Part shown: positions 22,587 to 41,586 of the stretch, in pieces
Position numbering within the stretch: the first letter of the stretch is position 1
How the letters are laid out: each line of letters opens with the position of its first letter
NCBI GenBank assembly: GCA_900314565.1
Contig: OMVU01000036.1
Location: 1 to 41,586, forward strand
From: an uncultured Eubacteriales bacterium
Lineage (GTDB): Bacteria; Bacillota; Clostridia; Lachnospirales; Lachnospiraceae
Direction: 5' to 3'
Length of the DNA: 41,586 nucleotides
Notes under the pieces: model-generated
The model's input: the letters and a program-made list of their open reading frames with translations, nothing else
Told to the model about the DNA's origin: nothing
The model's database searches: none
Position numbers and translations under genes: made by a program

Positions 22587-22587
22587 A

Positions 22588-22938: not shown

Positions 22939-22987
22939 AAAAAGCATCCCACAGAAGACCCAAGGGTCTCCCATGAGATGCCTTTTT
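22939..22987 (-). terminator. Intrinsic terminator of the 2058-aa adhesin gene
   Basis: On the minus strand GGCATC…GAGACCC TT GGGTCT…GATGC forms a long stem with small bulges, flanked by an A-run and followed by TTTTT. It lies about 120 bases past the adhesin stop at 23105. Confidence 0.88.
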
Positions 22988-23104
22988 GAATTCGCCTGCT
23001 GCAAATAACAGCATGCTTCTGATCATCAGTGAAGCTCCGCAGCTCTTGAGATCTGACTTTTCATTCTTCACAGTTCTTACACTTACTGTATATCTGTACG
23101 CCTA

Positions 23105-26100
23105 TTATCCGACATACATTCTGCGTCGTGTCACTAAGAGGACGCCTGCACCAATCAGAAGGACTGCACCAACGATATAGAAGATCGTGGTACCCATGCC
23201 GCCGGATTCAGGAAGTTCATAGGACTCTTCTGCAGTATTAATAATCGCTTCTCCATCCTTCGCACCACCCTGCGTCTCACTCTCTCCCGCTTTATAGACC
23301 GGATCCTTATATTTATCAACCCTCTCTTCTGTCACTTTATAAGAATCGCCATTATTATATGGCAGCCCCTTGATCTCAAATTTATACTCATAAGTCTCAT
23401 TGTTAACAGTTTTAACGGTTAAGATCGGGGCTCCCTCTTCTTGTCCGAAAATCTCTTTTCCTTCTATAAGGTCTCCTTTGGAAATCGTATACGTTCTTGA
23501 GTAAGTTTGATTTACTCCGCTTACGGTAACAATGATAGATGTGTTATCTGCCCACGCCATCCGTTCACCATTGTTCATCCAGATCTTCTCAAAGTCGATC
23601 TTCGTCGCATTATTCGTGAAAGAGACGACCGGAGCTTCCCTCGCCACCTTTCCGGCAGCTACCACGACCTCTACAGATCGTGAAGTGATTGTCGCAGGTG
23701 TGTTATCAATGGTCGCTCCAATCAGTTCCGTCCCTGTTTGAGAAGCCTCAGTGATGACGTATGTTCCCGCCGGCAGGTCTTTGATTTCTTCCGACTCAGC
23801 AACATTGCTGCCGTCAATGGTCAGTTCTATCGTTCTGGGCTCAAATTCTTCATCATCCTTTTTCGCGATTTTGAATGTGTATGTACCGTTCACCAGTGAA
23901 TATGTCTCCGCTGTCGGATCAATACCATTCACTTTTACTATCTTTTTGATTTTCAGGGAGCCTTTCGATTCCTTCTTATTCGTGAACACGATCGTCTCCG
24001 TTTCCTGCGTAAGTTCGCCGGTATGCGATCTTCCATTCTCTGTTATGTGCCCTGTTACGTTCCCATCTTCGTCAAATGTATCGTATCTGACAGTCGTCGT
24101 GAATTCGTTCCCTTCCTCATCTGTCAGAATCTCTTCGACCTTGTACTTTGTTCCCCTTTCAAAGCCCCAGAACATTTTCTGTTCCCTGTTCTTCAAAATG
24201 AACTCGAACACGCCGTTTTCAAACTGATCATTGCCGTACTTCTCGTTATACGAAGTATCAACTCCTCCGCTGTCATCAAGAATCGAGATTTTAAAATGAT
24301 AATTCGCCTCCAGATCCGCTTCTTCCGTACTCTCGACATTCTTCTCAATGACCAGGCCTTCAAGCGGCCAGTTCTTGATCTGCATCGAATCAGAATAGTA
24401 ATAAACGAAATGATTATAATCGATCTGTGCCATATCCGTGACTAAGGTAAACAGATAGTCAAATGATATCGTTCCGTACCCATCCAGCGGCTCTATCTCC
24501 TGAAGATGATACACTTCGCCATAAAAAATCTCAAACTCGTCACCGTCAATGAGCACTTCGCCGTTCTCATCACTTGTCAGGATCAGTTCCTTTGTTCCTT
24601 TGGAATCAAAACTAAGATCAGCATTTTCCGCAAAAAATTTGAACTGTACTCCCTCAAGTTTTTTGCTTGCATCATATCCGTCAACTTTTACAATTTTGAA
24701 GCTGGCTAATGCACTTTCTCCTTCTCCTGTAACTTTGTATATTTTTGTGCTTTCCGTGTGCTCCTCTCTTCCGTTAATTTCTGCATCGTTTTTAATCGTG
24801 ACCTCTCCGTTGCCAACGACCAGCGCCTCGTAGGTAATCGTCACGGCAGTAGAATCAGGAATGGTATATTTGACGACGGTCGAGCCGTCATCCCGACCGG
24901 TTGCGGAATATGGAACCGGCATTCCTTCCGGATCGGTGGTAATGGATACCGAACTGTAATCAAGACTGAGATTCGGACTCATCTTATCTGTCAGCGTCAT
25001 CGGTTCGCCCTGATTCAGCATTGCCTTTGCCTGATTGAAAGTGATCTGATATCTTGCTGTACGGTTGGTGCCGCCCAGTTCATTTTCATTCAGCAGCTTC
25101 TTATCAAAATAGTCATAAACCGTCTTATATGTATAAGAAGATTCATGATCTCCCCATTTAGCGGTATTTGTGAGATCATGCTCACCGCCGTTCGCGATGG
25201 CCAGGGCATCCAAATCAACACCATCCTTGAGCTTCAGAAAATACTGTATCTTGTAATGAGAATAGAACGGCCCATTTCCCATCCTGGGCACAGTGTTCGC
25301 AGTGATAATGACCCCATCGCTTGTCTCTGAATATGAGACAGGTGTCTCTCCGAATCTCTGATCCCATTGGTTTCCTCCCCATATTTTCATATGCCGGTAA
25401 TCGGTACTCCCGGTATCGATTTCAAGAAGGCTTGTATCAAACGTATCTTTTATACTCACCGGGGTATCTGAAACTCCGGATAATGTAAGAGTATATAGTA
25501 TGGATTTTACTTTCCCTGTCTGTTCATCTGTTTGTACCTCTCCTGTCTTTTTTATATCAGGTTTATCAAAAGTAACGGTTGCTTCAGCTTTTTCGGGTCC
25601 AATGGCAATCGTATTAATATGATTCATCAAATATTTATACTCATCAGATTCGACAGCATAACCAGCTGAAAGCCATTCCTGATTAACTTTCGTTGTAAGC
25701 CTGATTTTTATAGTATGTCCTCCCGGAGTACCCAGAAGCCCCGTGGTCTTATACTCACCCTCGCCTTTATAGAAAGTAATAGTCAACATGTTCGAGGCAT
25801 AAGAAACTTCATAGGATTCACCGTCCAGAAAATCCGAAATAACCAGAGTCCCTTCCTTATAATTATCAACCATCATCTTGCCATCCCAAAAGCGGGCAGG
25901 AAAAGTATCTACTACAACTGCTTGTGACAGACCTCCTTCCGGAACATAGAGGCTAGCTATCCAATTGATTTCCTCTGTAGAATATGACTCAATATCTTTT
26001 GTGATTTTTGTCTTATCCTTCGGCGTAATTTGAATCCCACCGCTGTCTCCGTTTGCAATATTATTCAGCGTGATAGCTACTCCGCCGTCATTGACCTTCT

Positions 26101-29100
26101 TCATATCTACCACTGTCTGATAGACAATCTGATAATGATATGGCTCCGTATCTGTCCCAGGAATCGTATAGGTCCAGGACGAATCGCTGTGTGAAGTCAG
26201 TGACGTATAGGGAACTTGCCTGGTATCAACAAGATTTCCGCTGTGGTCATAGACATTTACCGTAATTTCAGTCCCGTAATACTTCATGTAGCCTGTTGAA
26301 TCAGCGGAAATCGTGTCCGTAATGGTATCGCCCTTAACAGACGCCAGGGACAGCTCGTTATAGTCGATCGTCCATTCGATGATCTTATCGCCGCTTTCTG
26401 TAAGGCCTGCTTCCGTTCCGTCACTCTTCGTCGTCCATTTATACCGGATCTCTCTCGAGTATTCTCCTTTGTGCGGATCCCCTCCTTCAGGCTGTGCCGT
26501 CACTGTGTTCTTCGTCTGGTCGACAGTCAGCTTTCCGTCATTATCCATGTCTTTCGAAAAATCCGCTATGCCGGTATACGTGATCGTGATCTCCTCGCCA
26601 TCCGCCATGGATGCGAATGTATAATCAAAACCGTTTGGCGCCCCATTGTCCGTATAAGAGCTGCTGTTCCCGCTGACCTGCACATCGTTATTGAAAATGA
26701 CCGCATTTCCGGAGATGACGTCTCTCACATTTACATTCGTACAACCCCCATCTGCAGTAACCGTTATCGTGTAGTGGAAAATCCCGGTATGCTCGTCATA
26801 TTCAGCATACTTTGTCGCGTATGCCTGACCGCCCTTCGGTTCTTCAAATACAATATGCCGTACAACATCTTCGCTGAACTCGATTCTGGTCGTATCGTCA
26901 TCGAATACAGCATCAAATATGAATCGAAAACTTACATTTGTGGATGCTGCAAGTCTGTGGTAATCACTGTCGCTCTGATTGAATTGTATTTCCAGAAGGC
27001 CGTCTGTTCCCAGATGGTAGCGGGCTCCGACCTGATACGTCTTTCCTTTATACACGACATTGATATTCATAGTGTCTGACTGTTCGGCTAATACTTCAAC
27101 TCCGTCAGGCAACTGGTATGTCAATGTCCCGTCATTTTTGAACTGATAAGCAGAATCCTCCGTGAACGTTGCGATCAGATCGTAATGCACACCCTTTTCA
27201 ACAATATACGCTCCCGTACTGTCCTGTACTGCGCCGGCTATGACAACATTTTTCAGGAAGTCTGAGAGATTGGTGCTCTCCACCGGGTCCGTTACTTTTA
27301 TAACATAGCGGGACGAGTCCTTCATTGTGATCGTCAGCGTCTCTTCCGTCACAAAGGATTCCTTTGTCTTAAGGATCCAGTCATCGCTGAACAGGCCGAA
27401 AAATCCCGCCTTTGTGACTTCAAGAAGATCCGGATTTGAGAACTCTGCATCCAGGACGTCTGCGACAAAGGCACTCCCTGATGTGTACTTCTGTCCGTCT
27501 CCGGCAATTCCGAGAGCCTCAGCCAGTTCACTCAGCATCATTTCTCCGCCGCCGGGAAGCTTATAGAAGTAGCCGTTATACTCAAAATCGACAGTATAGA
27601 TGACGCCGTAAACAGAGAAACTCTCTGCTTCGAACTCTACTCTGCTGGCATCCGCATCGCTGACTTCAACAACTTCAGCGCCCTCTTTTCCAAAATGCAC
27701 TGCGCTCGCATCGATCTGCGCTTCCGCACCGGGATCTGCCTCTGCCACCGGCTGATCATAAGTAATATTGACACTTACATTCGCCGCCGGCTGAACTTCC
27801 TTCCCGTCAGCCATGATCCTGATATCGAAGAATCTTGCCTGCTCCTTCGGAAGCACCTGGTCCTTATCAAGGCCCATCGCCGCCTTCGCCTGTGCAAGAT
27901 ATTTCTTATATGCAGCCGTGCCATTCTCAATTTCTGTGACTTCAAGGACCACATTTGCCGGAATTTCTGCCTCTGCACTATATGCGAGCGTGACAGTATA
28001 ATCACTGCCCCTTACAGTAAGGGTGCCGCTTCCGGCTATTCCGCTTTCCTTCGATGTCTCCGCCTTTTCAGACGTTCTCTCCGACCTGCTGTCTGCAGAA
28101 TCAGTCTTTGTACCGGTGCTCTCAGTATTCTCTGTCTCGCTTTTCGAGGATTCTGAACTGCTTTCGGTTTTGCTGTCACTATCTGCGGACTCTTTCCCGC
28201 TTTCTGTTCTACTGTCACTTTCTGCGGACTCTGTACTGCTTTCATTCTTGCTGCCGCTCTCTGCGGACTCTGCACTGCTTTCGTTGCTGCTGTCTGTCGC
28301 AGCACTGTCTGCTTCCTGCTCAGCAACAAGCTTCCGCTCTTCATTCACCGGTCCTGCGACAAGCGTGATAATATCGGAATACTCCCCGAAGTTCAGGCTC
28401 TTCAGAGTGATTCCCGTGATGATACCGTATTCATTGAGCGAGATGACCGGCGTCTCATACGCATCGCCGTTCTTTTCTGTCAGAACCATTTCATCGGTAA
28501 GGTAATCGTAGATGGCAGCATAGACCACTTCATCCGTATGGCTGACTGTATTATTGTGGAAAATGAACTGCACATCAAAGTTCCCTGCCGGTGAATACTC
28601 GACAAGGTCCTTATCCGTGAAGACAAGCTGATACAGTACCTCCGTAGTCTTTGTGTCCACGAAGTTTTTGTAAAGTTCATCTGTAATACGGTCGCTGAAA
28701 CTCCTGACAACATCGGCGTCAGAAATTCCGCGGACCGAAAGAACCGTTCCGTCTGATACGCCAACGGAAAGGTCTCCGCTTACCACAACATCATAATCCT
28801 CACCCGTGAGGGTCATGATTCTTCTGTCACCGACAGTCTGAACTTCACCGTTGACGGGCTCTTTCACTTCTTCATCGACAACTGCTGTGCTCTCAGCAAT
28901 CTGTGCTGTCTCTGTCTGTGAGGACTCCGGCTGTGCTGTCCCATTTTCAGAAGAATCATCTCCTGGAGATGCCGTCTGCGATGATGCATCCGGAACTTTC
29001 TCCTGCAGGGTTTCGTCCGGGGTCTCATTTTCCGCATCCGCAGTCATGACCTCTCCCGGCGCTTCCGCCTCAGCTCCCGTGCTTCCGGGATCTGCCTCCT

Positions 29101-29281
29101 CCATGACAAGTCCGCCTACATTCTCTGTCCCGCTCTTCTCGACGGTGATCGCAGGCAGGATCAACGAATAGGTCGTTGTAAAAACTATGATCACCGCAAG
29201 ACAATATACAAATGTCCTCCATAGTCTCGATTTTTTCGAGACTTTAATAAAATTTTCCAGTATTTTTTCCAGTCTCTTCAT
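23105..29281 (-). CDS. Giant sortase-anchored multidomain adhesin (2058 aa, LPESG)
   Basis: Paralogue of the 2515-aa protein. It has the same N-terminal secretion region (KKSRLWRTFVYCLAVIIVFTT, TYSLILPAITVEKS), the same MTLTGEDYDVVVSGDLSVGV domain, and the same LTVRGSDYTVTLAYSAEAE…FSVYGVIYTVDF domain. Between them is a Ser/Glu/Asp-rich insert (~324-414, repeating units such as ESAESDSRTESGKESADSDS) that the paralogue lacks. Isopeptide-type beta domains fill ~650-1500. SpaA/Cna_B-type domains begin at ~1524 (ASFKIVKVDGYDASKKLEG), ~1640 (LVIEKNVESTEEADLEANYH), ~1774 (GSLKIKKIVKVNG) and ~1894 (IDFEKIWMNNGER). The anchor is YELPESGGMGTT (LPESG 2023-2027), then a helix and RRRM. GAGGGG precedes the ATG. 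It is probably a pilus-tip or stand-alone adhesin with a separate terminator and leader element. Confidence 0.9.
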   Translation of the reverse strand: MKRLEKILENFIKVSKKSRLWRTFVYCLAVIIVFTTTYSLILPAITVEKSGTENVGGLVMEEADPGSTGAEAEAPGEVMTADAENETPDETLQEKVPDASSQTASPGDDSSENGTAQPESSQTETAQIAESTAVVDEEVKEPVNGEVQTVGDRRIMTLTGEDYDVVVSGDLSVGVSDGTVLSVRGISDADVVRSFSDRITDELYKNFVDTKTTEVLYQLVFTDKDLVEYSPAGNFDVQFIFHNNTVSHTDEVVYAAIYDYLTDEMVLTEKNGDAYETPVISLNEYGIITGITLKSLNFGEYSDIITLVAGPVNEERKLVAEQEADSAATDSSNESSAESAESGSKNESSTESAESDSRTESGKESADSDSKTESSSESSKSETENTESTGTKTDSADSRSERTSEKAETSKESGIAGSGTLTVRGSDYTVTLAYSAEAEIPANVVLEVTEIENGTAAYKKYLAQAKAAMGLDKDQVLPKEQARFFDIRIMADGKEVQPAANVSVNITYDQPVAEADPGAEAQIDASAVHFGKEGAEVVEVSDADASRVEFEAESFSVYGVIYTVDFEYNGYFYKLPGGGEMMLSELAEALGIAGDGQKYTSGSAFVADVLDAEFSNPDLLEVTKAGFFGLFSDDWILKTKESFVTEETLTITMKDSSRYVIKVTDPVESTNLSDFLKNVVIAGAVQDSTGAYIVEKGVHYDLIATFTEDSAYQFKNDGTLTYQLPDGVEVLAEQSDTMNINVVYKGKTYQVGARYHLGTDGLLEIQFNQSDSDYHRLAASTNVSFRFIFDAVFDDDTTRIEFSEDVVRHIVFEEPKGGQAYATKYAEYDEHTGIFHYTITVTADGGCTNVNVRDVISGNAVIFNNDVQVSGNSSSYTDNGAPNGFDYTFASMADGEEITITYTGIADFSKDMDNDGKLTVDQTKNTVTAQPEGGDPHKGEYSREIRYKWTTKSDGTEAGLTESGDKIIEWTIDYNELSLASVKGDTITDTISADSTGYMKYYGTEITVNVYDHSGNLVDTRQVPYTSLTSHSDSSWTYTIPGTDTEPYHYQIVYQTVVDMKKVNDGGVAITLNNIANGDSGGIQITPKDKTKITKDIESYSTEEINWIASLYVPEGGLSQAVVVDTFPARFWDGKMMVDNYKEGTLVISDFLDGESYEVSYASNMLTITFYKGEGEYKTTGLLGTPGGHTIKIRLTTKVNQEWLSAGYAVESDEYKYLMNHINTIAIGPEKAEATVTFDKPDIKKTGEVQTDEQTGKVKSILYTLTLSGVSDTPVSIKDTFDTSLLEIDTGSTDYRHMKIWGGNQWDQRFGETPVSYSETSDGVIITANTVPRMGNGPFYSHYKIQYFLKLKDGVDLDALAIANGGEHDLTNTAKWGDHESSYTYKTVYDYFDKKLLNENELGGTNRTARYQITFNQAKAMLNQGEPMTLTDKMSPNLSLDYSSVSITTDPEGMPVPYSATGRDDGSTVVKYTIPDSTAVTITYEALVVGNGEVTIKNDAEINGREEHTESTKIYKVTGEGESALASFKIVKVDGYDASKKLEGVQFKFFAENADLSFDSKGTKELILTSDENGEVLIDGDEFEIFYGEVYHLQEIEPLDGYGTISFDYLFTLVTDMAQIDYNHFVYYYSDSMQIKNWPLEGLVIEKNVESTEEADLEANYHFKISILDDSGGVDTSYNEKYGNDQFENGVFEFILKNREQKMFWGFERGTKYKVEEILTDEEGNEFTTTVRYDTFDEDGNVTGHITENGRSHTGELTQETETIVFTNKKESKGSLKIKKIVKVNGIDPTAETYSLVNGTYTFKIAKKDDEEFEPRTIELTIDGSNVAESEEIKDLPAGTYVITEASQTGTELIGATIDNTPATITSRSVEVVVAAGKVAREAPVVSFTNNATKIDFEKIWMNNGERMAWADNTSIIVTVSGVNQTYSRTYTISKGDLIEGKEIFGQEEGAPILTVKTVNNETYEYKFEIKGLPYNNGDSYKVTEERVDKYKDPVYKAGESETQGGAKDGEAIINTAEESYELPESGGMGTTIFYIVGAVLLIGAGVLLVTRRRMYVG

Positions 29282-29324
29282 AAGCTACCCCTCTTCCGCT
29301 TATTATGCTGCCCATAAACAGGTT

Positions 29325-29370
29325 CTGTCCGGCAAATTCTTATGCTGCAAGCGAATCGGATTATGCCGGG
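29325..29370 (-). promoter_or_regulatory. Conserved pilus-locus promoter/leader element, copy C
   Basis: A shorter, more diverged copy directly before the 2058-aa adhesin. On the minus strand GGCATAAT is followed by CCGATTCGCTTGCAGCATAAG and AATTTGCCGGACAG. It aligns with the -10/CGATTCG/CTGCAGC/TTTGCC core of copies A and B. The predicted transcript start is about 70 bases from the ATG. Confidence 0.5.
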
Positions 29371-29764
29371 AATTTTCCAGGAATATTTTTTGTGCCGATG
29401 TTTGCTCATTTCCTTCTGCAAGCTCTTTCTTAGAAAATTGATCTGCTTCCGTTGGACAAAAAAGCTCCCGGGAAATACCGCGAGCCAAAGTCATTGAAGT
29501 TTCCTATATGTCATAAATGTTAATGGAGGGGGGTAAAAAATCTCCGGTATCCATTCATGCGCAAGTATCCCCCGTCCTATCAATAACATGCATACTATTT
29601 CCCAATTTGTATTATACACTATAGGTATTTCAATTTCAATAACTAATACATAAGTATTAAATTATTATGTTTTTAGTTCCTATGCTTTTTTATGTTTTTC
29701 TCAGTAAAGAAAAACCCTGCTTCTATAAAGTGAGATGTAATAAAAAATTCCGTCCATTTTGCTT
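29371..29764. other. Gene-free spacer upstream of the 2058-aa adhesin
   Basis: No gene is visible. An AT-rich segment at ~29590-29700 (with TATTATACACTATAGG) could hold promoter elements. A G-run (GGAGGGGGG, ~29525) resembles a ribosome site on the plus strand, but no supported plus-strand gene follows it. Confidence 0.4.
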
Positions 29765-29768
29765 TCAA

Positions 29769-29802
29769 AATGAATGAGAGGGCTCCCGCCCTCTCATTCA
29801 TT
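29769..29802 (-). terminator. Perfect 15-bp stem terminator overlapping the sortase stop
   Basis: AATGAATGAGAGGGC (29769-29783) pairs perfectly with GCCCTCTCATTCATT (29788-29802) around a four-base loop. On the minus strand a short TTTT run follows. The right arm includes the stop codon of the sortase gene (29798-29800). Confidence 0.85.
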
Positions 29803-30454
29803 TGTCCATTCTTATGCATCTCACCGCACACCGCGTCTGCCCGCCCGTATTACATGTGAACAGTGTCATATCCCAGTCGTTCGAAACATTTTTGTCATTA
29901 TGCGAATTTTTGATCATTTGGTCGACCGCCATCGGTTGCACTGTCTCGATGTTGCTGACTTTATATGAATACATCACGCCGTCCACCGTCGTCAGATATA
30001 CATCCGCGCCCAGATCGATCCATTTGACCGGGCTGAAATGTCTCGCGTAATTGTGCGCACAGATCACCAGGTCATTCGTCTTATAGCTGCCGGAAAATAC
30101 GCATGGACTGATCTTCAGTCTCGTATAATCACAGTCCGCCATGACCGGCAGATTCAGTCCGAGGCTGGGGATCTTCAGCGTTCCTATATATGCATATCCA
30201 TCGATCATCTCCGTCGGCATGGTCGGGTCGATCTCAGGCTCCAGACCTTCCGGTACGATCACCTCCTCCGGAGTTTCAATGTCATCAGGAATCACTTCCT
30301 CCAGCTTTTCCACGATTGCTGTGCTCGCGTGCTCCGCGCGCTTGCCGTCCCATACATTATATATGACCAGGGTAAGGGCCGCGGCGAAGAGAAGCAGTCC
30401 CATGACGATCAATATATTCCCGATAACACTGCGATACTTCTTCTTTTGTTTCAT
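29798..30454 (-). CDS. Sortase (second pilus-locus sortase, not class C)
   Basis: 218 residues from the ATG at 30454, chosen because a GGGGTTAG ribosome-like site precedes it and the protein then opens with a basic MKQKKKYRS and a membrane helix (~11-31). The sortase fold has IGTLKIPSLGLNLPV, H134 in VICAHNYARHF, C201 in TLFTCNTGG and R208 in QTRCAVR, the complete catalytic triad. It has no C-terminal membrane helix, so it is not class C. The TLxTC and short size fit a class D/E- or B-like housekeeping or basal-anchoring sortase. It follows the small LPQTGQ pilin after a strong terminator, so it has its own promoter or depends on readthrough. It may anchor the finished pilus or the giant adhesins to the wall. 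Confidence 0.88.
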   Translation of the reverse strand: MKQKKKYRSVIGNILIVMGLLLFAAALTLVIYNVWDGKRAEHASTAIVEKLEEVIPDDIETPEEVIVPEGLEPEIDPTMPTEMIDGYAYIGTLKIPSLGLNLPVMADCDYTRLKISPCVFSGSYKTNDLVICAHNYARHFSPVKWIDLGADVYLTTVDGVMYSYKVSNIETVQPMAVDQMIKNSHNDKNVSNDWDMTLFTCNTGGQTRCAVRCIRMDK

Positions 30455-30683
30455 TTTTCTAACCCCATGGCAGTAATAATCTGAAGTCCATATAATAAAG
30501 TCCAAACGGCATCCCGAATAGACCGCAATAATCGTCTGCGCTTCAATACCGCCCGATTATTAATACAGCCTTCCATATCGAAGTTAATAACCCCATTATA
30601 TTCATAATATTGCAGTTTACCAGCAATAAACTTGTGAAGATATTATGAAACAATCGATACATCACAAGGTTTTCGCCTTCTTT
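30455..30683. other. Gene-free leader region of the second sortase
   Basis: No gene is visible. The AT-rich DNA contains TTTATTATATGG about 30 bases before the sortase start on the minus strand, a weak -10 candidate without a clear -35. A CAATATTATGAATATAATG stretch lies near 30600. Confidence 0.4.
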
Positions 30684-30685
30684 AC

Positions 30686-30724
30686 AAAAAAACGCATAGA
30701 TTTCTGTGATTGGAAATCTATGCG
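30686..30724 (-). terminator. Intrinsic terminator of the small pilin operon
   Basis: CGCATAGATTTC (30693-30704) pairs perfectly with GAAATCTATGCG (30713-30724). On the minus strand TTTTTTT follows (A-run 30686-30692). This ends the unknown protein / class C sortase / small pilin transcript. Confidence 0.92.
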
Positions 30725-30815
30725 TCCTCAAGAATCTACATATTTAGATTTCTTCTGCCTTCTTATTCTTCAAGGAAAAACAAGGTACTTTCCGGTTTCG
30801 CTTTCTTCAACGAGA

Positions 30816-31577
30816 TCAAGCTGTCTTCTTCCTCTTCAGCGCAATCCCGCCAACCAGCAGTGCAAGCCCGATTCCGCACAGTACCGGAACCGGCCACCAC
30901 AGCTGACCTGTCTGCGGAAGAACCGTCTTAGATCCTGAGGACGGTGTACCCGGTGTGCCCGGCTTACCAGGAGTCGGTGTAGGTGTAGTCTTCGGCGTTG
31001 TTGTCGGCGGAACCTCTATACCCTTCTTCGGTGTTGCAACAATATCATAGCTTCCGTTTTCTCCTGGAATGGATACAAGGAACGGATTAATCTTAACGCC
31101 GCCATCCGAAGGCTTCGACTGAAGGACAAGGTAGAGTCCCGGCGTAAGATTCTCGAACTTGCAGGCTCCATCCGCAACATCCACTGTTTTCCCCTCAACA
31201 CCTGCGATGTTTTTCTCAAGTGCCTCCGCAATCGTCGCGTTATTCTTATCCAGTTCATCTGAATTCATGTCCGGAATATCTTTGACAACTTCGGAACTGG
31301 CAAAACTACCACCGGAGATATCAAATTTATATCCATTCTCCTCCTTCACAGTCGCTACCGTGTAGATAGACAGACTTCCACCTGACATGTTTTTTTCCGT
31401 CTTTGTCCCATTATCCGTATACGTTAGTGTCAGGGTGATTGAGCAGTCTGTCTTCCCTGTATCAACCGGCCAATTCCCTGATGCTTTTGACTCAGTTGCG
31501 CAGACGGGCACTGCTGCGCCCATCATGAGGACTGCGGATGCAAAGATTGCTGTGAATTTTCCAATCCATTTTTTCAT
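30816..31577 (-). CDS. Small LPQTGQLWW-type pilin
   Basis: 253 residues from the ATG at 31577, preferred over the in-frame ATG at 31592 because GAGGGG stands just before it and the protein then begins with a normal signal peptide (MKKWIGKFTAIFASAVLMMGAAVPVCA). One compact Ig-like/Cna_B domain (~35-180) has NLTPGLYLVLQSKPSDGG as an E-box-like segment. A Pro/Thr spacer (TTTPKTTPTPTPGKPGTPG) follows, then the sorting signal LPQTGQLWWPVP, a helix and KRKKTA. The Q-L-W-W-P after LPQTG differs from the G-G of the other substrates here, suggesting a different sortase preference. It is likely a backbone or basal subunit of a second pilus type, directly downstream of the class C sortase. Confidence 0.9.
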   Translation of the reverse strand: MKKWIGKFTAIFASAVLMMGAAVPVCATESKASGNWPVDTGKTDCSITLTLTYTDNGTKTEKNMSGGSLSIYTVATVKEENGYKFDISGGSFASSEVVKDIPDMNSDELDKNNATIAEALEKNIAGVEGKTVDVADGACKFENLTPGLYLVLQSKPSDGGVKINPFLVSIPGENGSYDIVATPKKGIEVPPTTTPKTTPTPTPGKPGTPGTPSSGSKTVLPQTGQLWWPVPVLCGIGLALLVGGIALKRKKTA

Positions 31578-31667
31578 ATCTTTTCCCCTCATATTATTAT
31601 AAAAGTTGTTGTTTCAACCATATCCTACAGAATATGAGTTGCATCTCCTTTGATACCTGCCTGTAAA

Positions 31668-32540
31668 TCATCCATGCCAGTCAAACTCGTTCTCCGCCTT
31701 CTGGCGAATTTTCTTCCGCCTCTTCATATACTCTGTCGATACCATCATAATGATGAGCAGCACCACAATGAACGGTATTGCAAGGAAAGGCGCTATGTAC
31801 ACCGGTTCGATCTGGAGTGCATCAGCTATGACATTGGCTTCGCCCTGCGCATTATCCACACGGTGCCCTCTTACAAGAAGTCTGTGTGTATTAATTCCGT
31901 AAGGTGTGCAGGTGACCAGTGTGAAGTAATCCTTCCCCTGCTCGATCTGCAGATTGCTCAGGTCTGTCGGTTCAACGACCCGGATCTGATCGACCTCATA
32001 AGTCAGTGTCTTATTCAGAACATTGACCGTCCATGTATCGCCCTCGACCAGCTTATCGATATCTGTAAAAAGTTTCGCTGACGGAAGTCCCCGATGTCCG
32101 GATACAACGCAGTGTGCTGATGGTCCGCCAACCGGCAGCGACGTCTCTGAAAGATGTCCTATCGCGATCTGCAGAACCGCATCGTCAATCCCATGATAGA
32201 TAGGAAGCTCCACATGAATCTTCGGAATAGTGATATATCCCATAATTCCGGTTCCGGTGATATCCAGCTCCTTCTCATAGACTGCAAGCTCTTCCTTGCT
32301 CATCTTCCAATTAATGCCATTGATTGCCAGATTGTTATTGTATGCCTCCGCTTCCGCCAGGATCCTTTCATATTCTGAAGTGTCCATGTTCGCGACCTTT
32401 TGAGCGTAACTTGCAACAGCTCTCGATTGATGAAAACTGTTCCACCAGTCCGCAACACTCGGATACAGGATAAGTCCAAGTCCAAAAAGTCCTACTGCAA
32501 CAATTATGAGCGTAACGCGGTTCTCTTTAATCCATCTCAT
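31668..32540 (-). CDS. Class C (pilus-polymerising) sortase
   Basis: 290 residues with an N-terminal membrane helix (~9-28) and a C-terminal one (~252-272), the topology of class C sortases. The core has GYITIPKIHVELPIYHG, the class C signature IGHLSETSLPVGG, H149 in VVSGHRGLP, LFTDIDKLVEGD, C211 in TLVTCTPYG, and R220 in NTHRLLVRGHR. It polymerises pilins by joining the sorting-signal Thr to a subunit Lys. A typical DPW/DPF lid motif is not evident. It is 90 bases upstream of the small pilin in the same transcript and is the only class C enzyme here, so it may also polymerise the LPSTG major pilin. The ribosome site is poor. Confidence 0.93.
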   Translation of the reverse strand: MRWIKENRVTLIIVAVGLFGLGLILYPSVADWWNSFHQSRAVASYAQKVANMDTSEYERILAEAEAYNNNLAINGINWKMSKEELAVYEKELDITGTGIMGYITIPKIHVELPIYHGIDDAVLQIAIGHLSETSLPVGGPSAHCVVSGHRGLPSAKLFTDIDKLVEGDTWTVNVLNKTLTYEVDQIRVVEPTDLSNLQIEQGKDYFTLVTCTPYGINTHRLLVRGHRVDNAQGEANVIADALQIEPVYIAPFLAIPFIVVLLIIMMVSTEYMKRRKKIRQKAENEFDWHG

Positions 32541-33940: not shown

Positions 33941-34636
33941 TCACGCCGTTATTATATACCATAAATGCCGAAAACCATCCCGCACCGTCCTCAGTTTCTC
34001 TGTCCGCACTCTCTGTGCCTTCTTAAGCGGCACGCTGACCTCTCCGATCCTTAGGTCTTTCCGGCTTGCTTCCGCGATCATTTCTGTGGCAAACTCCATA
34101 CCTGTGGTTTTGAATTCACATTTCTCCGATGCATCCTTCCGGATACCTCGAATGCCACAGTGCCAGTCATGGATCTTTACTCCAAATTTCACTCTGCCAC
34201 ACCACGAAAGGAATGGCACCCCCAGCTTATGTGACCAGCTCATAGCGCCGTCCTCCATCTGTCCGGCAAAGCGATCGCCTGTAACGAAGTCATACCTGTT
34301 TTCTGCAAGCGGCGAGTAAATAGGATCCAGATTGGAAAAATCGTATGTGCTGTCACAATCTCCAAAGATGATCACCTCACCTCTTGCTTTCCGAAGGCCT
34401 GTGCGCAGGGCACGGCCATAGCCGGGACGCAGTTCAGAGACGACACGTGCGCCGCAGCCCTTAGCAATTGCAGCCGAATTATCCGTGCTATTATTATCGA
34501 CAATCAGGATTTCCCCGATTTGATTGAAGCGGTCGTTAATGGAAGACAGGTAGCTCTGAGCCTGTCCGATGGAAAAGGCGATGTTTCCTTCTTCGTTCAG
34601 ACAAGGCATGAGGATAGTGAGATTAAGATTATTCAT
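33941..34636 (-). CDS. GtrB/DPM1-type family 2 glycosyltransferase, second copy
   Basis: 231 residues starting MNNLNLTILMPCLNEEGN at the ATG at 34636, which overlaps the upstream stop as ATGA, exactly like the copy at 6599-7315. It shares nearly all motifs with that copy: IVDNNSTDNSAAIAKGCGA, RPGYGRALRTGL, DxD-type FGDCDSTYDF (the middle A replaced by C), VKIHDWHCGIRGIRKDA, and a C-terminus without membrane helices. It probably makes a polyprenyl-phosphate sugar for the membrane paralogue D encoded just upstream. The high similarity suggests recent duplication or gene conversion. Confidence 0.9.
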   Translation of the reverse strand: MNNLNLTILMPCLNEEGNIAFSIGQAQSYLSSINDRFNQIGEILIVDNNSTDNSAAIAKGCGARVVSELRPGYGRALRTGLRKARGEVIIFGDCDSTYDFSNLDPIYSPLAENRYDFVTGDRFAGQMEDGAMSWSHKLGVPFLSWCGRVKFGVKIHDWHCGIRGIRKDASEKCEFKTTGMEFATEMIAEASRKDLRIGEVSVPLKKAQRVRTEKLRTVRDGFRHLWYIITA

Positions 34637-36057
34637 TCTCCTGTTCCCCCTGTCACACATAGACTGTGATCGGCATTTCGCTGATTATTTTGTTCCCTGA
34701 ACAGTTCAGCAAGTACAAAACACAATGCCAGAATACTTCCTGCCAAAGCCCTGTATGTAAAACTCCTATGGTACCAGGCATGGTTATGAAGGACCAAATA
34801 TCTAACCATGGGAATACAACCGATGACAAAGTATCCCGCCAACAATTGTCTGTTTGCAGTCTTATTAAGTTTTATCCTGCGAACCGCTATCAGAGTAATG
34901 ACGATTCCAACCATTAATCCCAGGATGAAATATCCGAATCGCCCATAATCAAATGGCAGAAGACATCTCAGATTCCTTCCAATCGCTCCAACAGCATACG
35001 CCAGTTGCGACTTGCCATTCGGGTCTCCTCCGATACGCTCTTCAATATGTGCAGTTACATAAGGCATGACATTTTCCTGAAGAATGAGCGATGCCAGAAT
35101 CCATTTTGAAAGCCACATCAGACTGAATCCGGCCAGCCATGAAAAACAAGATGACGCGATCATCTTTACAAACATGGTAAGTCCTTGGATATCTCCTTCC
35201 GCATCGGAATTGACGACGCTCTGTTTATTTCTCCACCGGATACTCACCATAAGAAGCAGAGGGATCACCAGTGTAATTGTCTCTGTTGTCAGGAAATCCA
35301 GATATGCAATGAAAATGCCGGTAAAGAAAAACAAGGGTGTCGCTTTCTCCCACGCCCCCGTTTGAGCGATTTTCACACTAATAATGGAAGCAATCAGCAT
35401 TACAAAAAAGCACCAGTAATATTCCAGACAGATAGGAACAAACCAGATGCTGACCATGACAAGCGATATGATCAAAGAAATGGCTTCCAATACATAATGC
35501 CCTTTTATCAAAAGCAGCAGCAAAAATGCCAGCAGCATCGCCAGAATAAAAGAATGCAGAACATAAATCTGCCGGATATTTGCGAAAATGTGCATGAACC
35601 TGATGATTCCGGCTGACCCGTGCCAATAGCGAAGATATTCTTTGTTCGCATGCAGTCGATTATCGACCGATTGCTGAAACAGTTTTATCGATTCATCCGT
35701 ATCTTTCGGGGTGCCGTAATACTTGGCCCACATCACTGCTTTCAGCTTTTCGGCATTTGTAAATCGAAATTGATCAAAGGCCCTGTCAAAATTGTGAGGG
35801 GCTATTTCGTCTCCCAAGTGGTACGCGATATTCAGCGTCAACATGTCTGCATACGGATGCACTTTACTGCTGTTGATCCCCGGGAGAATCTGCCATGTCG
35901 TCGGGCGTTCAGCCAGGATTCCGGCAGACTCTTCCATATGTTTTTGAATGGCATCCTGCGGGATATAGGCAGTTGCAAGCATCACACAGGTGAGAAGGAA
36001 TATCAGGGCTCCCAGATATATTATGTAGGTGGTCAAATTTTGAATATTTCGTCTCAT
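34633..36057 (-). CDS. Polytopic membrane protein, GT-C-like, paralogue D
   Basis: 474 residues, the longest of the four paralogues; the extra length includes an insert after the YADMLTLNIAYHL motif (GDEIAPHNFDRAFDQFRF) and an insert near residue 285 (SDAEGDIQGLTMFVK). It keeps EYLRYWHGSAGIIR, WFVPICLEYYWCF, YLDFLTTETITLVIP and a C-terminal HRSFTYRALAGSILAL. About 11 hydrophobic helices. AAGGA precedes its ATG and its stop overlaps the GtrB-like start by four bases. This two-gene D-GtrB module lies immediately upstream of the pilus locus, mirroring the C-B-GtrB-A module downstream of it. The inferred role is outer-face sugar transfer. Confidence 0.7.
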   Translation of the reverse strand: MRRNIQNLTTYIIYLGALIFLLTCVMLATAYIPQDAIQKHMEESAGILAERPTTWQILPGINSSKVHPYADMLTLNIAYHLGDEIAPHNFDRAFDQFRFTNAEKLKAVMWAKYYGTPKDTDESIKLFQQSVDNRLHANKEYLRYWHGSAGIIRFMHIFANIRQIYVLHSFILAMLLAFLLLLLIKGHYVLEAISLIISLVMVSIWFVPICLEYYWCFFVMLIASIISVKIAQTGAWEKATPLFFFTGIFIAYLDFLTTETITLVIPLLLMVSIRWRNKQSVVNSDAEGDIQGLTMFVKMIASSCFSWLAGFSLMWLSKWILASLILQENVMPYVTAHIEERIGGDPNGKSQLAYAVGAIGRNLRCLLPFDYGRFGYFILGLMVGIVITLIAVRRIKLNKTANRQLLAGYFVIGCIPMVRYLVLHNHAWYHRSFTYRALAGSILALCFVLAELFREQNNQRNADHSLCVTGGTGE

Positions 36058-36117
36058 TTTTCCTTATTTGTCATCGCACACATCATACAGGATATTGCAA
36101 CTGCATTGTCTACGATC

Positions 36118-36840
36118 TCAAAACTTTCGTATAATGTGCCGCGCGACTATCAAAATTGTGAACTGCAAAGGATAAAAACAACTATACATCCAGCCGAACC
36201 ATTTACTAAGGTAGCCAAGATTCCGGTTGTAGAAAGCAAGTGGAACAACCGCCACCAGAGTACCAACTAAACGGCGATTAAAAGATTTAGCCGATTCCAT
36301 CAGCGCTTCTCCACCACTGAATCCAGCACTACCCCAAATGTACACGCAGATATATATGACGTCGATCAGCAGAAGCACACATAAGCGCTGTATGAAGTTT
36401 AAACTATCCGCCCGCTGGAGATACACGTAGAAAAGTACAATCAGAACCACACCTCCAAATCCATATCCTGCTCGCAGGAAATGCGCGGAAAAAGCGGCTA
36501 TGAATCAGATTACCACAGCGCCCGTTCGTGCTATCACTTGATTTTGAGCATGTCTACCTTCCCACCAGCCCACAAGAATTAGGGCAACAAATCCTATCAG
36601 CAACATAGGAATTGTATTCTGCGTTTTCCAGTTCATCCACTTCAGGAGAATATACTGATCGTGGAGCGGCTCGCTCCACGTAGATAAAATCAAAAGTTTA
36701 AGCACATGGCTTCGAAGGCGATCAGGCTTCTCCCTCAAATGATAGTAACTCTCTGCAATAAGAAAAGCGTAGACGATGAATGCGACACGGCCAATATTAC
36801 GCATTACGTTGTTATTGTTAACAAGCCAGAATATGCTCTG
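36118..36840 (-). pseudogene. TraX-family membrane protein, 5'-truncated with an in-frame stop
   Basis: Reading begins around 36840 inside the chimeric ORF with NNNNVMRNIGRVAFIVYAFLI, the TraX pattern of G-R-x-A-F-P-x-F-A-F. It continues through SEPLHDQYIL and several helices, meets TGA at 36505, then carries on in the same frame (AAFSAHFLRAGYGFGG… to LSKWFGWMYSCFYPLQFTIL) to the stop at 36118. K-W-x-F-Y-x-F-Y-P-x-H/Q near the end is the TraX C-terminal signature. TraX acetylates F pilin in plasmid systems; chromosomal homologues in Firmicutes are of unknown use. The first helices are missing because a phage fragment is joined to the gene. Confidence 0.78.
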
Positions 36841-38208
36841 TCCTTTTCGCTCTCCGACGCACCCATCGGAATCCATGAGGCCCTGCAGCAGCGCCCATCT
36901 CTGTTTCTCCGATGCTCTCAGGTACTCAGCCCGGATTGCCTTATCCCGAAAAGACTTTAAAAGGATGGGCTTCAGTTCCGTATAGTTCAGAACTTCGCTC
37001 CCACCGCACTTCTGCGGATAACGATTGTGAAGCTGATAAGGTATGAATGAGATAATATCCTCTACATCTTCATCCCTTACTGTGATCTCCGGCTTCATGG
37101 CGTTTCCATTCCCAAGCCAATACCCATAAAGATACGGATCAACTGGAAGATCGGTATCTGGAATTTTCAGCGGAGCAGCTACCGGGATTCTAATAAGAGA
37201 GCGCCGTGCTTCTTTCGGATCATCCCTATGACGGTCTCTGAATGCTTGTGTCCTTCGAAATATTTCTCCCGTTGTCCACAGCACAGAGCGCGGTTTCCCA
37301 TAAATATAATCGCAGTTCCACAAATGTCGTTCCCCAGCAATAATGCTGCTCCCATCGCGAAACGTCAGTTTATAAGCCTGCTCGGTATCATCCACTTCAC
37401 TCTTAGCCATCACATGGCAGGGCTTGCCATTCTCGTCAAAAACGGTATCGCCCACCTTCAGATCCCCCATTGCCTTAAAGCCAGCAGGCGTCGGGATTGG
37501 TGTGTCCAGCGCTAATTGCTTTCCATTCTTCTTTGGTATCTCCACATAAGCCGTCCGGAACTGCCGGTGACCATTCTCATCGACGATCCCAAACACATCC
37601 CGGATGATCTGCTCCTGCCATGGCAGAAGCCAGAAGCGCTTCCCGGCCCAGCGGCCTTTCGTATGCTTCAGGTTCTCAATAAACCGGACAGCACGGTTAG
37701 CGCGATCCTCATCGTAATGGGAAGTCGGCAGCATGAACTTCGTCGGAATGCCAACATTCCGAGCCTGCACGGCTTCCTCGAAATCATCATAATACCCGAG
37801 ATGGATTTCCTGCTGGGATACCTTAATCCGTGCACGGTATTTTTCATTTCGCGGATAAAAATCAACGCCGGATACGCCGCTGCTGTTGTTGCACTGCAGG
37901 CTGTGGTTGATCTGGTTCTGCTGATGCGTCACGACCCGCAGGTTTTCTGACCGGTTGTCCAGCGTATCGAGACTGATATGGTCGACCTCGTATCCCGGCG
38001 GACAGTCACAGAGCACCCGGTGCAAGTAATTGCCGTGCCGGTCAATGAGATACAGCTTCCTGTGACCCGGCTTTCGGTAATTCCGGTACCATTTCGTATC
38101 CCGGATGCGGTCAAACCGGTTTTTATCAAACAGGAACCGAGTTCCATCCGGCAACGTGCCTATCCCGGTGTTCCCTTCAAAGCGGTAACTGACATTACTC
38201 ACTGCCAT
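36505..38208 (-). pseudogene. Chimeric ORF: HNH/AP2 nuclease + large terminase start + truncated intein + TraX fragment
   Basis: One open frame of 567 codons from the ATG at 38208 (GGAAGG upstream, inside the end of the methyltransferase gene). Residues ~1-150 are an HNH homing nuclease with an AP2-like tail (CPPGYEVDHISLDTLDNRSE, NLRVVTHQQNQ, SSGVSGVDFYP). Residues ~154-230 are the N-terminus of an HK97-type large terminase (RANRAVRFIENLKHTKGRWA, LLPWQEQIIRDVFG), reaching Walker A as IPKKNGK. There an intein begins (QLALDTPIPTPAGFKAMGDL). It has a block-B His (AGERHLW) and both LAGLIDADG motifs (YLYGYWLGNG, LQGLMDSDG), but no C-terminal splicing motifs. At about residue 457 the frame passes into TraX (NNNNVMRNIGRVAF). 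The terminase ATPase and nuclease domains are gone, so neither splicing nor packaging can work. Confidence 0.85.
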
Positions 38209-39460
38209 CACCGCCTTCCGGCTCGAAGGAAGCGACCTCCTCAAACTTCAGTTTCTGACCGTCGCGAATCACATACACATCCGCGTAATTACCGTAATGA
38301 CTCTGGATATACCGCTTCACGACTACATCGACGAACTTTTCTTCGATCTCGATACCCATCGCCACACGATCCGTTTCATCGCAGGCAATCAGTGTGCTGC
38401 CGCTACCGAGAAACGGATCAAGAACAACACCGTTTGTCATGGTACTATTCTTAATGGGATATGCCATCAGTGCCACCGGTTTCATAGTCAGATGATCCTT
38501 GTTCGATTTCGGGCGGTCATACTCCCAGATCGTTGTCTGTTTCCGGTCGGAATACCACTGGTGCTTCCCATCTTTTTTCCAACCATAGAGACAGGGCTCA
38601 TGCATCCACTGATACGGAGACCGGCCCAGCACCAGCGCATTCTTCTTCCAAATGCAACAGCCAGACAGATAGAATCCGGCCTCATCAAAAGCCCTGCGGA
38701 AGATCAGACCTTTCGTATCTGCATGGAAAATATAGATGCTGCCGTCATCGGCAAGCACATCCGCCATGCATTTCATCGCCTTCAGCGTGAAGTCATAGGC
38801 ATCGGCATCGTTCAGGTCATCGTTCTGAATGGTTCCCGCCGTCCCATGGTAAGCTACAAAGTACGGAAGATCGGAAAGCACCATGTTGACTTTCACATCA
38901 CCAAGCAGGGCCTTGTAAGAATCCGGCAGGGTCGAATCCCCGCACAGGACTTTGTGCCTGCCAAGAAGCCACACATCGCCTTTCTTTGAAAAAACCGGCT
39001 GTTTCAGTTCCGACTCCACATCGAAGTCATCTTCCTTCACGGCCTTGTCGTGTACCTTGTTGAACAGGGTCTCAATCTCCGGCGGATCGAAGCCAGTCTT
39101 GTCCAGGTCAAAATCGGAATCCTGAATATCCTGCAGCAGATCCGCCAGCAGGTTTTCATCCCACGCTCCGGTGATTTTATTGAGCGCGATGTTCAGTGCC
39201 TTCTCTCTGACTTTATCGATATCCACAACGGCGCAGGGAACCTCGGTGTACCCAAGATCCATCGCAACCGTCAGCCTCTGGTGACCGCCGATAATGGTCA
39301 TATCCGCATTTACCACAAGAGGGTCGGCAAAACCAAATTCCTCGATGCTGTTTTTGATCTTTTCGTATTCCTTATCACCCGGCTTCAGCTTTTTACGCGG
39401 ATTGTATTCCGCAGGCTTCAGCTCACTTACCGCGATCACTTTCAGTATTGCTGTTTTCAT
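38195..39460 (-). CDS. Phage ParB-domain DNA methyltransferase
   Basis: 421 residues. An N-terminal ParB/Srx-like domain (~5-110: PAEYNPRKKLKPGDKEY, IIGGHQRLTVAMDLGY) is fused to an N4/N6 amino-methyltransferase (~160-400). Motif IV is SDLPY near residue 194, a variant of D/S-P-P-Y with L for the first P. Motif I is DPFLGSGST near residue 346, and the order IV-before-I indicates the beta class. Such enzymes sit beside terminase genes in Clostridia prophages and probably protect phage DNA from host restriction. It overlaps the zinc-finger gene by 38 bases upstream and the chimeric ORF by 14 bases downstream. The nearby metK would supply S-adenosylmethionine. Confidence 0.92.
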   Translation of the reverse strand: MKTAILKVIAVSELKPAEYNPRKKLKPGDKEYEKIKNSIEEFGFADPLVVNADMTIIGGHQRLTVAMDLGYTEVPCAVVDIDKVREKALNIALNKITGAWDENLLADLLQDIQDSDFDLDKTGFDPPEIETLFNKVHDKAVKEDDFDVESELKQPVFSKKGDVWLLGRHKVLCGDSTLPDSYKALLGDVKVNMVLSDLPYFVAYHGTAGTIQNDDLNDADAYDFTLKAMKCMADVLADDGSIYIFHADTKGLIFRRAFDEAGFYLSGCCIWKKNALVLGRSPYQWMHEPCLYGWKKDGKHQWYSDRKQTTIWEYDRPKSNKDHLTMKPVALMAYPIKNSTMTNGVVLDPFLGSGSTLIACDETDRVAMGIEIEEKFVDVVVKRYIQSHYGNYADVYVIRDGQKLKFEEVASFEPEGGDGSE

Positions 39461-39764
39461 ACCCTTCTCCTTTCAGCGTCCGGCCCCGGTTGGCACAAGC
39501 CCGGCTGCAATATCTTCTCTGCCTTTTGTTTTCATGCTGGGCAAAAAACGTCCGGCCACAGACCGGGCAGACCTGCTCATGGTAGGAATCCCACTGCTTC
39601 GGTTTCGGATGGGCCTTCCAGTACCTGCGCCTGCAGGGATCGGAGCAGAACTTCCGGGGCCTGCCGGTTTCCTTCTGCCGGATCTGTGTCCCGCACACCG
39701 GGCAGAAACGCTGCACGCATCCGGCGATGAATTCATCCATATCCACTTTTTCAAATTCGACCAC
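39423..39764 (-). CDS. Small phage double zinc-ribbon protein
   Basis: 113 residues with two Cys4-type knuckles: CPVCGTQIRQKETG…RKFCSDPCRRRYW (~21-48) and CPVCGRTFFAQHENKRQRRY…CSRAC (~66-90). It has no membrane segment. Similar small zinc-finger proteins are encoded directly before ParB-methyltransferases in phage packaging modules; they may bind DNA, but no activity is known to me. The large overlap with the methyltransferase start implies translational coupling. Confidence 0.8.
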   Translation of the reverse strand: MVEFEKVDMDEFIAGCVQRFCPVCGTQIRQKETGRPRKFCSDPCRRRYWKAHPKPKQWDSYHEQVCPVCGRTFFAQHENKRQRRYCSRACANRGRTLKGEGYENSNTESDRGK

Positions 39765-40150
39765 CGGATACGCCCCCTTTCATGTGGCAATGAAAGCCCT
39801 GTGGATTTTGCGATTTTCTGTAAAAAGGCATGAAAAAAGCGGAGGCATTTTCGTCCCCGCATGGCTTGCTTTCCCTGTCGTTTCAAATGTCCTCCCGGAC
39901 ATATAAAAAGGCGTAAAATCTGCTGTTTTCCCATGGAATCACAGGTGTTTACGCAGATTTACGCCCTTTGATCTGAAGAGGAGGATCTTGGAAATATCTA
40001 TGTTTTGTTACCGTATGGGACAGCCTTACCCCCGCCCTATGAATTTCGCGGAAATGCACGCGAGAGGGGGCGGCGGTCTGTGGGGGCTGGCCTTTTAGAG
40101 ATTCATACCCGGCCCCCGGGGCCGCGCTTTGACTTTCGTCCCGCATGGAA
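39765..40150. other. Non-coding phage spacer where the small terminase gene would be expected; possible cos region
   Basis: No credible gene is seen; minus-strand frames here are shadows. It contains the inverted repeat GGCGTAAAATCTGC (39910-39923) / GCAGATTTACGCC (39953-39965). It also has a GC-rich block at ~40050-40135 with G- and C-runs. In HNH-encoding cos phages the HNH nuclease gene, the cohesive-end site and the terminase genes are adjacent, so this spacer could contain cos. The small terminase normally found in this area is absent. Confidence 0.45.
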
Positions 40151-40516
40151 TCAGTAATGGTAGGTCGGATGGCTGTCTTCCCGACCGGTCTTTTTGTCAT
40201 GACAGCTCTTACAAAGGCCGCGCCAGTTGCTCCGATCCCAGAAGAGAACCGGATCTCCCCGGTGCGGTTTGATGTGGTCGACCACGGTTGCCTTGACGTA
40301 GCGTCCGTCCTTCAGGCATTCCTCACAGAGCCTGTGCTCCGGCATGGACAGGAAGCGTTTGCTCTCCCGCTGCCACGCCGCACCATAGCCACGGCTGCTG
40401 GCCGAGCGCGTCGCTTCCGGGTGGAGCTTCTTATGCTCCTCGCAGTACTTCTGCCCGTATGGGATAAGGGCTGGACAGCCCGGGTGCCTGCAGGGGACGT
40501 TGACACGGGACGGCAT
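40151..40516 (-). CDS. Phage HNH endonuclease, packaging-associated
   Basis: 121 residues from the ATG at 40516, which shares one base with the metK stop (TGATG). Zinc-binding Cys pairs (CRHPGCPALIPYGQKYCEEH; CEECLKDGR; LCKSCHDKK) frame the HNH core VVDHIKPHRGDPVLFWDRSN, with the metal-binding D-H and N. This is the type that works with the large terminase in cleaving DNA at cos. Length and layout are normal, and the gene appears intact although the terminase downstream is broken. Confidence 0.93.
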   Translation of the reverse strand: MPSRVNVPCRHPGCPALIPYGQKYCEEHKKLHPEATRSASSRGYGAAWQRESKRFLSMPEHRLCEECLKDGRYVKATVVDHIKPHRGDPVLFWDRSNWRGLCKSCHDKKTGREDSHPTYHY

Positions 40517-41528
40517 CACATCTCCCAGGGAAGGCCCTGCTTCCCGAAATGCCCGTAACTGCTCACCTTGTTGTAATCAACGGAGAGCAGATCCAGATCC
40601 CTTATAATGCCCTTTGGTGTCAGGTCATAGTTCTCACGGACATACCGGTTTATGAATTCCGGGTTCTGGTATTCCGTGCCGAAACAGTCGATATACACAG
40701 CTACCGGCTGCAGGACGCCAATGGCATAAGCCAGCTGCACCTCACACTTATCGGCATACCCGGAGAGCACGATATCCCGCGCTATCTTCCGGGCCATGTA
40801 GGCAGCCGAGCGGTCAACCTTCGTCGGGTCTTTTCCGGACAGCGCACCGCCGCCGATATGCCCAATCCCGCCATAGGTATCACAGGCCAGCTTCCTGCCG
40901 GTAACCCCGCAGTCCGCATAAGGGCCGCCGATCACAAACCTGCCGGTCGGATTGACCAGCTTTTCAAAGTCCGTATTCAGTACATACTCGGATGCGGCCA
41001 GTACCATGATCGACTCAATGATATGCCGGAAATCTGCTACCTCCACATCCGGGCTATGCTGGACGCTGCAGAGGAAGGTCGTAATTCGTCCGGTATCATA
41101 ATCGTAGGAAACCTGGGCCTTGGCATCGGCCCGGAACATCCTGCTCGGGTGGTTACGCAGGATCTGCAGGAAGCGTGTCGCCACCATAAAGGGAATCGGC
41201 ATGAGCTCCGGTGTTTCATTCGTCGCATAGCCGTACATGATTCCCTGATCACCGGCACCGCCCTTATCAACGCCAAGCGCGATATCCAGCCCATCTTCTC
41301 CCATCCGATCTTGGTAAAGACGCTGACCACAAGAGCCCGGTAATCCGGCTTATGGGTGCTAGTCAGCTCCCCGGCAATGATCACATGGTTATCTTTGAGC
41401 AGGCATTCGATGGCAGCTCTCGATTTCGGATCGTACTTCAGGCAGTCCGTTACGATCGCATCGGCGATCTGGTCACAGATCTTATCGGGATGCCCGTCCG
41501 ATATCTGTTCGCAGGTAAGTACTCTCAT
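40516..41528 (-). pseudogene. metK: Phage S-adenosylmethionine synthetase with a frameshift
   Basis: The start is the ATG at 41528 (MRVLTCEQISDGHPDKICDQ) with AAAGGA seven bases upstream. The first ~78 codons include the ATP-binding GHPDKICDQIADAI and end normally at SVFTKIGW. The frame must then shift near 41290-41305 to continue DGLDIALGVDKGGAGDQGIM…, the conserved GGGALSGKDPTKVDRSAAYM and the end KQGLPWEM at 40516. Combined length (~337 residues) is a little below bacterial MetK (~390), as expected for phage versions. One missing base in GGATGGGAGAAGATGG explains the break. It is either a true inactivating mutation or a sequencing error. In context it would provide methyl donor for the ParB-methyltransferase. 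Confidence 0.82.
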
Positions 41529-41546
41529 AATCGTTCCTTTCATGAT

Positions 41547-41576
41547 AAAAGCCCCGATGGATTTCTCCACCGAGGC
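41547..41576 (-). terminator. Intrinsic terminator of an upstream gene beyond the window
   Basis: On the minus strand GCCTCGGTGGA pairs with TCCATCGGGGC (two wobble pairs) around a GAAA tetraloop, followed by TTTT. It lies just before the metK ribosome site, so it closes the transcript coming from the right or attenuates metK. Confidence 0.8.
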
Positions 41577-41586
41577 CCTGTTCATT

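Follow-up and report, generated by a model that had tools for sequence, protein, structure and literature searches.

How a single open frame comes to run through a phage nuclease, the start of a phage terminase (TerL), part of an intein and part of a host membrane-protein gene is the question raised by this locus, which lies in a 41,586-nucleotide stretch of DNA (the window) that makes up the whole of contig C87 (G000:C87) in a 4.2-Mb genome assembled into 191 contigs. The frame lies on the minus strand, where it is open from an ATG at 38208 to 36505 and encodes 567 aa (P0001); it extends 5' to a TTG start at 38244 (38244..36505 open), stops at a TGA at 36507-36505 and then resumes, in the same frame, as far as 36118. 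The modules follow one another in the order AP2-type HNH nuclease, TerL start, cut intein and TraX fragment, with borders, set by relatives, at residues 1-153, 154-230, 231-459 and approximately 460-567.

Pfam recognized HNH_3 (residues 69-99, E = 4 × 10−10, above cut-off), TraX (residues 462-559, E = 2 × 10−7) and, below its cut-off, TerL_ATPase (residues 196-232, E = 0.03, 36 of 178 profile positions), and the PHROG profiles matched an HNH endonuclease (residues 68-151, E = 2 × 10−33) and TerL (residues 202-451, E = 4 × 10−30); the NCBIfam search gave no match above a cut-off. The modules are true homologies rather than chance resemblances. The initial annotation of one open frame through four unrelated modules, with TraX continuing in frame past one TGA, is thus borne out. 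The AP2 label on the HNH module was given in the initial annotation and is likewise presumed by us, and no AP2 family matched in the Pfam search of the fused product.

Table 1 Features of the fused frame and its surroundings (positions are those of the window).
Feature	Positions	Strand	Evidence
Host 474-aa membrane-type protein (no Pfam match) and GT2 glycosyltransferase	33941..36057	-	Homologous pair in G028
traX fragment 2, same frame after TGA, profile 135-215	36118..36504	-	E 0.056 alone, below cut-off
traX fragment 1, profile 22-112 of 217, ends at TGA	36505..36830	-	Pfam; complete C89 paralogue
Joint J2, phage intein to host traX	36830..36831	-	Phage match ends at 36831 in L128, L129 and L130; Pfam TraX from residue 462
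Intein, first 229 residues, class-3-like, LAGLIDADG-like motifs	36831..37518	-	Relatives L128-L130; PHROG TerL models
TerL N-terminal 76-77 residues up to Walker A lysine	37519..37749	-	Inside 98% block to L128; viral relatives
Joint J1, AP2-HNH to TerL, in frame	37747..37750	-	blastn blocks against L128, L129 and L130
AP2-type HNH endonuclease, residues 1-153	37750..38208	-	Pfam HNH_3; 95% DNA and protein identity to separate, longer L128 gene
Phage ParB-N / N6-N4 DNA methyltransferase, open	38195..39460	-	Pfam, PHROG; same neighbours in L173, L172 and L075
Phage metK, frameshifted	40516..41585	-	Two frames; Pfam parts; phrog_1569 positions 2-78 and 89-345

Close phage segments in three MAGs, namely a Parasporobacterium MAG from roe deer jejunum (L128) and the Lachnospiraceae MAGs RUG14439 (L129) and UBA7729 (L130), give the exact base of both joints on the phage side. 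Over window positions 36831-37746 or 36831-37750, DNA identity was 97.9% for L128, 96.7% for L129 and 95.7% for L130, and L128 also matched window positions 37748-38287 at 95.0%. In the blastn comparison, window positions 37748-38287 correspond to L128 594-55 and positions 36831-37746 to L128 5241-4326, such that 3,731 bp of L128 (595-4325) are absent from the window between AP2-HNH codon 153 and the TerL start; L129 and L130 match positions 36831-37750. At this joint (J1), the HNH homology, seen in L128, runs to 37748 and the TerL homology, seen in L129 and L130, begins at 37750, with a 3-bp overlap, CAT. The segment of L128 that is missing from the window contains the end of AP2-HNH, several small ORFs, a putative small-terminase-like ORF, a second HNH ORF and the pre-TerL region. 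The window AP2-HNH ends 44 residues short of the L128 protein, and the TerL piece lacks its first 15 codons with reference to the L129 and L130 starts. The comparison indicates that HNH and TerL are not natively joined at 37750-37747 and that this joint, too, is a deletion joint. At the second joint (J2), all three relatives (3/3) continue beyond 36831 into the intein, whereas the window continues into traX; the frame is open through this phage/host junction, as had been annotated, but its position is 36831/36830 rather than near 36840.

Between the joints, residues 154/155-460 are 96-98% identical to the proteins of L128-L130, and residues 155-230 are up to 89% identical in viral loci (L059); L129 and L130 read DYIPTKFMLP where the window reads NVGIPTKFMLP. 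Intein-free relatives read KKNGKSELAAA, and the window has, at the same place, KKNGK followed by the intein. TerL in the window is incomplete: it goes no further than the Walker A lysine, with the nuclease domain and the remainder of the ATPase gone. The intein is complete in L129 and L130; the window copy is cut after its second LAGLIDADG-like motif, in agreement with the initial annotation, and lacks the C-terminal splicing blocks. Its position 1 is a non-nucleophile (Gln231 in the window; Q, E or A in relatives). Class 3 inteins, as characterized for mycobacteriophage TerL, have no nucleophile at position 1 and carry W, C and T in blocks B, F and G (PMC5050341). The L130 intein starts with Gln and contains HLW, MQCIQVD and VPTHN before Ser (blocks assigned by eye); in the window, the W-C-T triplet is incomplete, with HLW present and the F/G blocks (MQCIQVD, VPTHN) absent, likewise as assigned by eye. 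Because W is kept but C and T are lost, the window intein should not splice, and because it has no catalytic C-terminal blocks, the Walker A site would never be rebuilt; neither splicing nor packaging can be expected of the fused product, and the HNH catalytic motif might be the sole module with remaining activity.

TerL is one open frame with its own start in both L129 (857 aa) and L130 (883 aa); that of L128 is absent from the list of closed frames, probably owing to the contig end there. The L129 TerL (399-2972) is 26 residues shorter than that of L130, in frame, approximately 15 residues past the splice site, and is possibly another broken TerL of the same phage group. Viral contigs contained at least 600 stretches encoding relatives; among the best 80 of these, long TerL/intein matches end at residue 460, TerL matches mostly start at residues 154-156, with some at 142-144 or 160-166, and AP2-HNH matches are separate genes.

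On the other side of J2, the TraX domain (PF05857) is neither continuous nor full-length: the N-terminus is lost and a TGA lies inside, although, read as one match across the TGA, the two fragments score 57 bits, above cut-off. Four other TraX matches without stops are present in the same genome (C59, C115, C89 and C65), and compared with the complete C89 paralogue, of 257 aa, the window traX lacks approximately 22 N-terminal codons (the extension past the aligned block is ungapped, by eye). An intact allele of the window traX, sought through host-side DNA in 42 genus genomes with matches in 4 (including the genome itself), was found in none, and no empty site for J2 was found; J2 is therefore mapped from the phage side alone. 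The initial annotation had suggested seeking intact traX and intact terminase in relatives; genes of both kinds occur intact elsewhere, but in the genomes examined this particular traX had no intact allele next to the junction. One genome, G028, has the homologous membrane-protein/GT2 pair and gave no TraX match; there, the pair adjoins ORFs read as putatively sortase-like and pilin-like.

The contig ends at 41586 inside the phage segment, the other end of which is J2, and no tRNA genes were found in the window. The phage genes are ordered metK, HNH, zinc ORF, DNA methyltransferase, AP2-HNH and TerL. From metK to AP2-HNH, this order matches L173 and L172, and from HNH to TerL it matches L075 and also L079, apart from the zinc ORF, for which L079 gave no match. 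In the five genomes of L128-L132, all matches to window positions 33941-41586 fall on the phage side; megablast against phage records gave no match. The methyltransferase gene overlaps the HNH ATG by 14 bp. At approximately 41287, metK lacks 61 bp that L172 and L173 both contain, and the frame is lost; the gene is open in L173 and in the examined part of L172. Directly upstream of TerL, different HNH genes are found in L128 (3739-4278), L087 (859-1203) and L096 (4001-4255), and HNH genes seem to come and go at this site.

Conservation of the entire chimera would have pointed to a real gene family, as the initial annotation recognized. In a frame test of 177 loci, each module was searched separately (E ≤ 10−3) and assigned to a stop-to-stop frame. 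Matches were obtained at 158 of the 177 loci; the multi-module frames comprised either TerL and intein (33) or all four modules (6), and all 6 of the latter are copies of the window itself. HNH and TerL in one frame were found at none of the 177 loci besides the window. Some part of the fused product was matched in 61 of 145 genomes (own genome included); own genome aside, TraX matches extend no further than 8 residues into the intein side (the lowest start being 453), and no TerL/intein match goes beyond residue 460. At E ≤ 10−6, the fused product was matched in 72 of 397 genomes (own genome included). One match, in G262 (residues 436-545, 33% identity), nominally crosses J2, but its open frame, of 230 aa, is of ordinary TraX length. 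Several TerL matches start before J1, at residues 141-153, and two weak ones span more across it (G001, residues 97-231 at 27%; G064, residues 81-182 at 29%). Viral contigs contained no exact match (0) to J1 or J2. Among 26 candidate stretches from named-genome contigs, 7 encode a relative, all 7 on the intein side only (query residues 1-81 of 188). The genome, viral-contig and 177-locus searches thus yielded no conserved family of HNH-TerL or intein-TraX fusions; no relative examined carries the chimera, and nothing in these comparisons suggests a conserved one.

Nor was the missing phage DNA recovered in the same genome. The TerL ATPase and TerL nuclease families had no matches there, with matches in 3 of 14 control genomes each time; the ATPase search also missed the window's own short piece and bears on longer copies only. 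The L128 query returned the two window blocks and one 86-bp match in C43 (74% identity), and nothing else. This match falls in the segment deleted at J1 (L128 2119-2207), and is, from its length and divergence, too short and too divergent to be the lost piece. The L130 segment 4251-9252, comprising the rest of the intein and TerL and the following ORFs, had no match in this genome, in a search run without a positive control; beyond TerL, its ORFs were read as putative portal and protease.

Taken together, these results argue that the locus is what remains of one end of a prophage that decayed recently and in which the deletions stayed in frame by luck, a reading to which we assign a probability of roughly 0.88. 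The phage-type genes follow the order of known phage segments, and essential genes are lost or broken (TerL, J1, J2, metK). The two in-frame joints, for which we calculate a chance of approximately 1 in 9 that both keep the frame, are a modest coincidence that counts against this reading, as do the one-sided mapping of J2 and the end of the contig at 41586, short of the far end of the element and of any integrase or attachment site. A phage fragment and a host contig might have been falsely joined at J2, and perhaps at J1, during assembly or library preparation, but this appears unlikely. The phage part does sit at a contig end, G+C content is 53% on the phage side vs. 46% on the host side, and the joints occur in no second genome or viral contig; however, only about 3 bp are common to both sides of J1, leaving a k-mer assembler without a basis for a misjoin, and metK and traX are broken too, as in decay. 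The expected leftovers, i.e. the rest of TerL and the J1 segment, were not found in the assembly, bar the 86-bp match at 74% identity, although a phage piece from another organism would not be expected to leave its remainder here.

The view that HNH-TerL is a natural phage gene fusion, with J2 as the sole break, is the least probable of those considered: other HNH genes do occur just upstream of TerL in L087, L096 and L128 (the second HNH), but in no other examined locus do HNH and TerL share a frame, AP2-HNH is a complete gene in the nearest relatives, L128 (where it is 44 residues longer) and L173, and TerL in L129 and L130 has its own start. Only slightly less improbable would be an expressed, useful protein, such as a membrane-bound HNH nuclease. 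The 567 open codons, a start that falls where the frame overlaps the methyltransferase gene, and an HNH motif above the family cut-off are compatible with it; against it, among the 177 loci, the frame occurs only in the window's own six copies, AP2-HNH is truncated, and the intein, without its C-terminal blocks, is predicted to be splice-dead. TraX is cut at both ends and carries a nonsense codon, and a single hydrophobic segment (residues 529-551) passes a simple hydropathy threshold. The earlier proposal of an HNH protein with a membrane tail, drawn from the open frame, is not supported. It would be similarly surprising if transcription of the deletion-born frame yielded a stable HNH nuclease, attached to the membrane, that the host had begun to keep; if true, this would be the birth of a gene through prophage decay, caught in progress.

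Returning to prophage decay, its age can be gauged from the TerL/intein stretch. Over 916 bp compared with L128, L129 and L130, the window has 15 private changes, of which 12 are silent and 3 are not, against a random expectation of 71-77% non-silent (p = 4 × 10−6 to 6 × 10−5). The preponderance of silent changes suggests that, for most of the period after the split, the stretch was under selection within a functioning phage gene, and that the loss of function was recent. Most probably, a loss of 3.7 kb from the prophage fused AP2-HNH to TerL at J1, and another loss, from the intein to inside traX, fused the TerL intein to the truncated traX at J2, with smaller lesions being the 61-bp frameshifting loss in metK and the traX nonsense codon. 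Both joints probably arose by illegitimate deletion, through end-joining or short homology, and the product, if made, would not work as a terminase or as TraX. The annotated deletion or illegitimate recombination joining phage packaging DNA to host traX is supported, with two in-frame joints in place of one.

Cryptic (defective) prophages with deletion joints are well established; the window resembles them in its usual phage gene order, its losses and the truncated neighbouring host gene, and differs in that two joints are in frame. The mycobacteriophage TerL1-a/b inteins are inserted at Walker A (PMC5050341), and the intein of the window group likewise follows the P-loop lysine; the complete L129 and L130 copies share with the class 3 inteins described there the non-nucleophile first residue and W, C and T (by eye), whereas the window copy is cut after 229 residues. 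The Arth_1007 intein of Arthrobacter FB24, described as a pseudogene (PMC3196547), is similarly a phage-related intein left in a non-working gene; in the window, the break lies within the intein, which is joined to a host gene. The TraX fragments match the family profile (PF05857) and differ from the family in the lost N-terminus and the internal TGA. The locus looks like an ordinary genetic relic of low novelty, a prophage in decay whose fusion frame is fortuitous, rather than a new protein family. It is a clean case of recent prophage decay because near-identical relatives place the phage side of the joints to the base, and it is a warning for automated annotation, which could give an HNH nuclease, terminase or TraX label, each wrong.

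The host side (5315-11749, 14845-32540 and 33941-36057) is a sortase/pilin region, with a protein carrying SpaA, pilin-backbone and cell-wall-anchor domains, two sortases and two very large ORFs of 2515 aa (SpaA matches) and 2058 aa (no Pfam match). It also has paralogous membrane-protein/GT2 sets, with 77% DNA identity between the GT2 genes at 6609-7290 and in the 34-kb copy. On the phage side, metK is a phage-borne S-adenosylmethionine synthetase gene upstream of a phage DNA methyltransferase gene. The latter is mosaic: it matches L172 in pieces at 69-74% and is approximately 85% identical to the L173/L174 alleles, and the DNA flanking it on both sides is approximately 95% identical to L172/L128.
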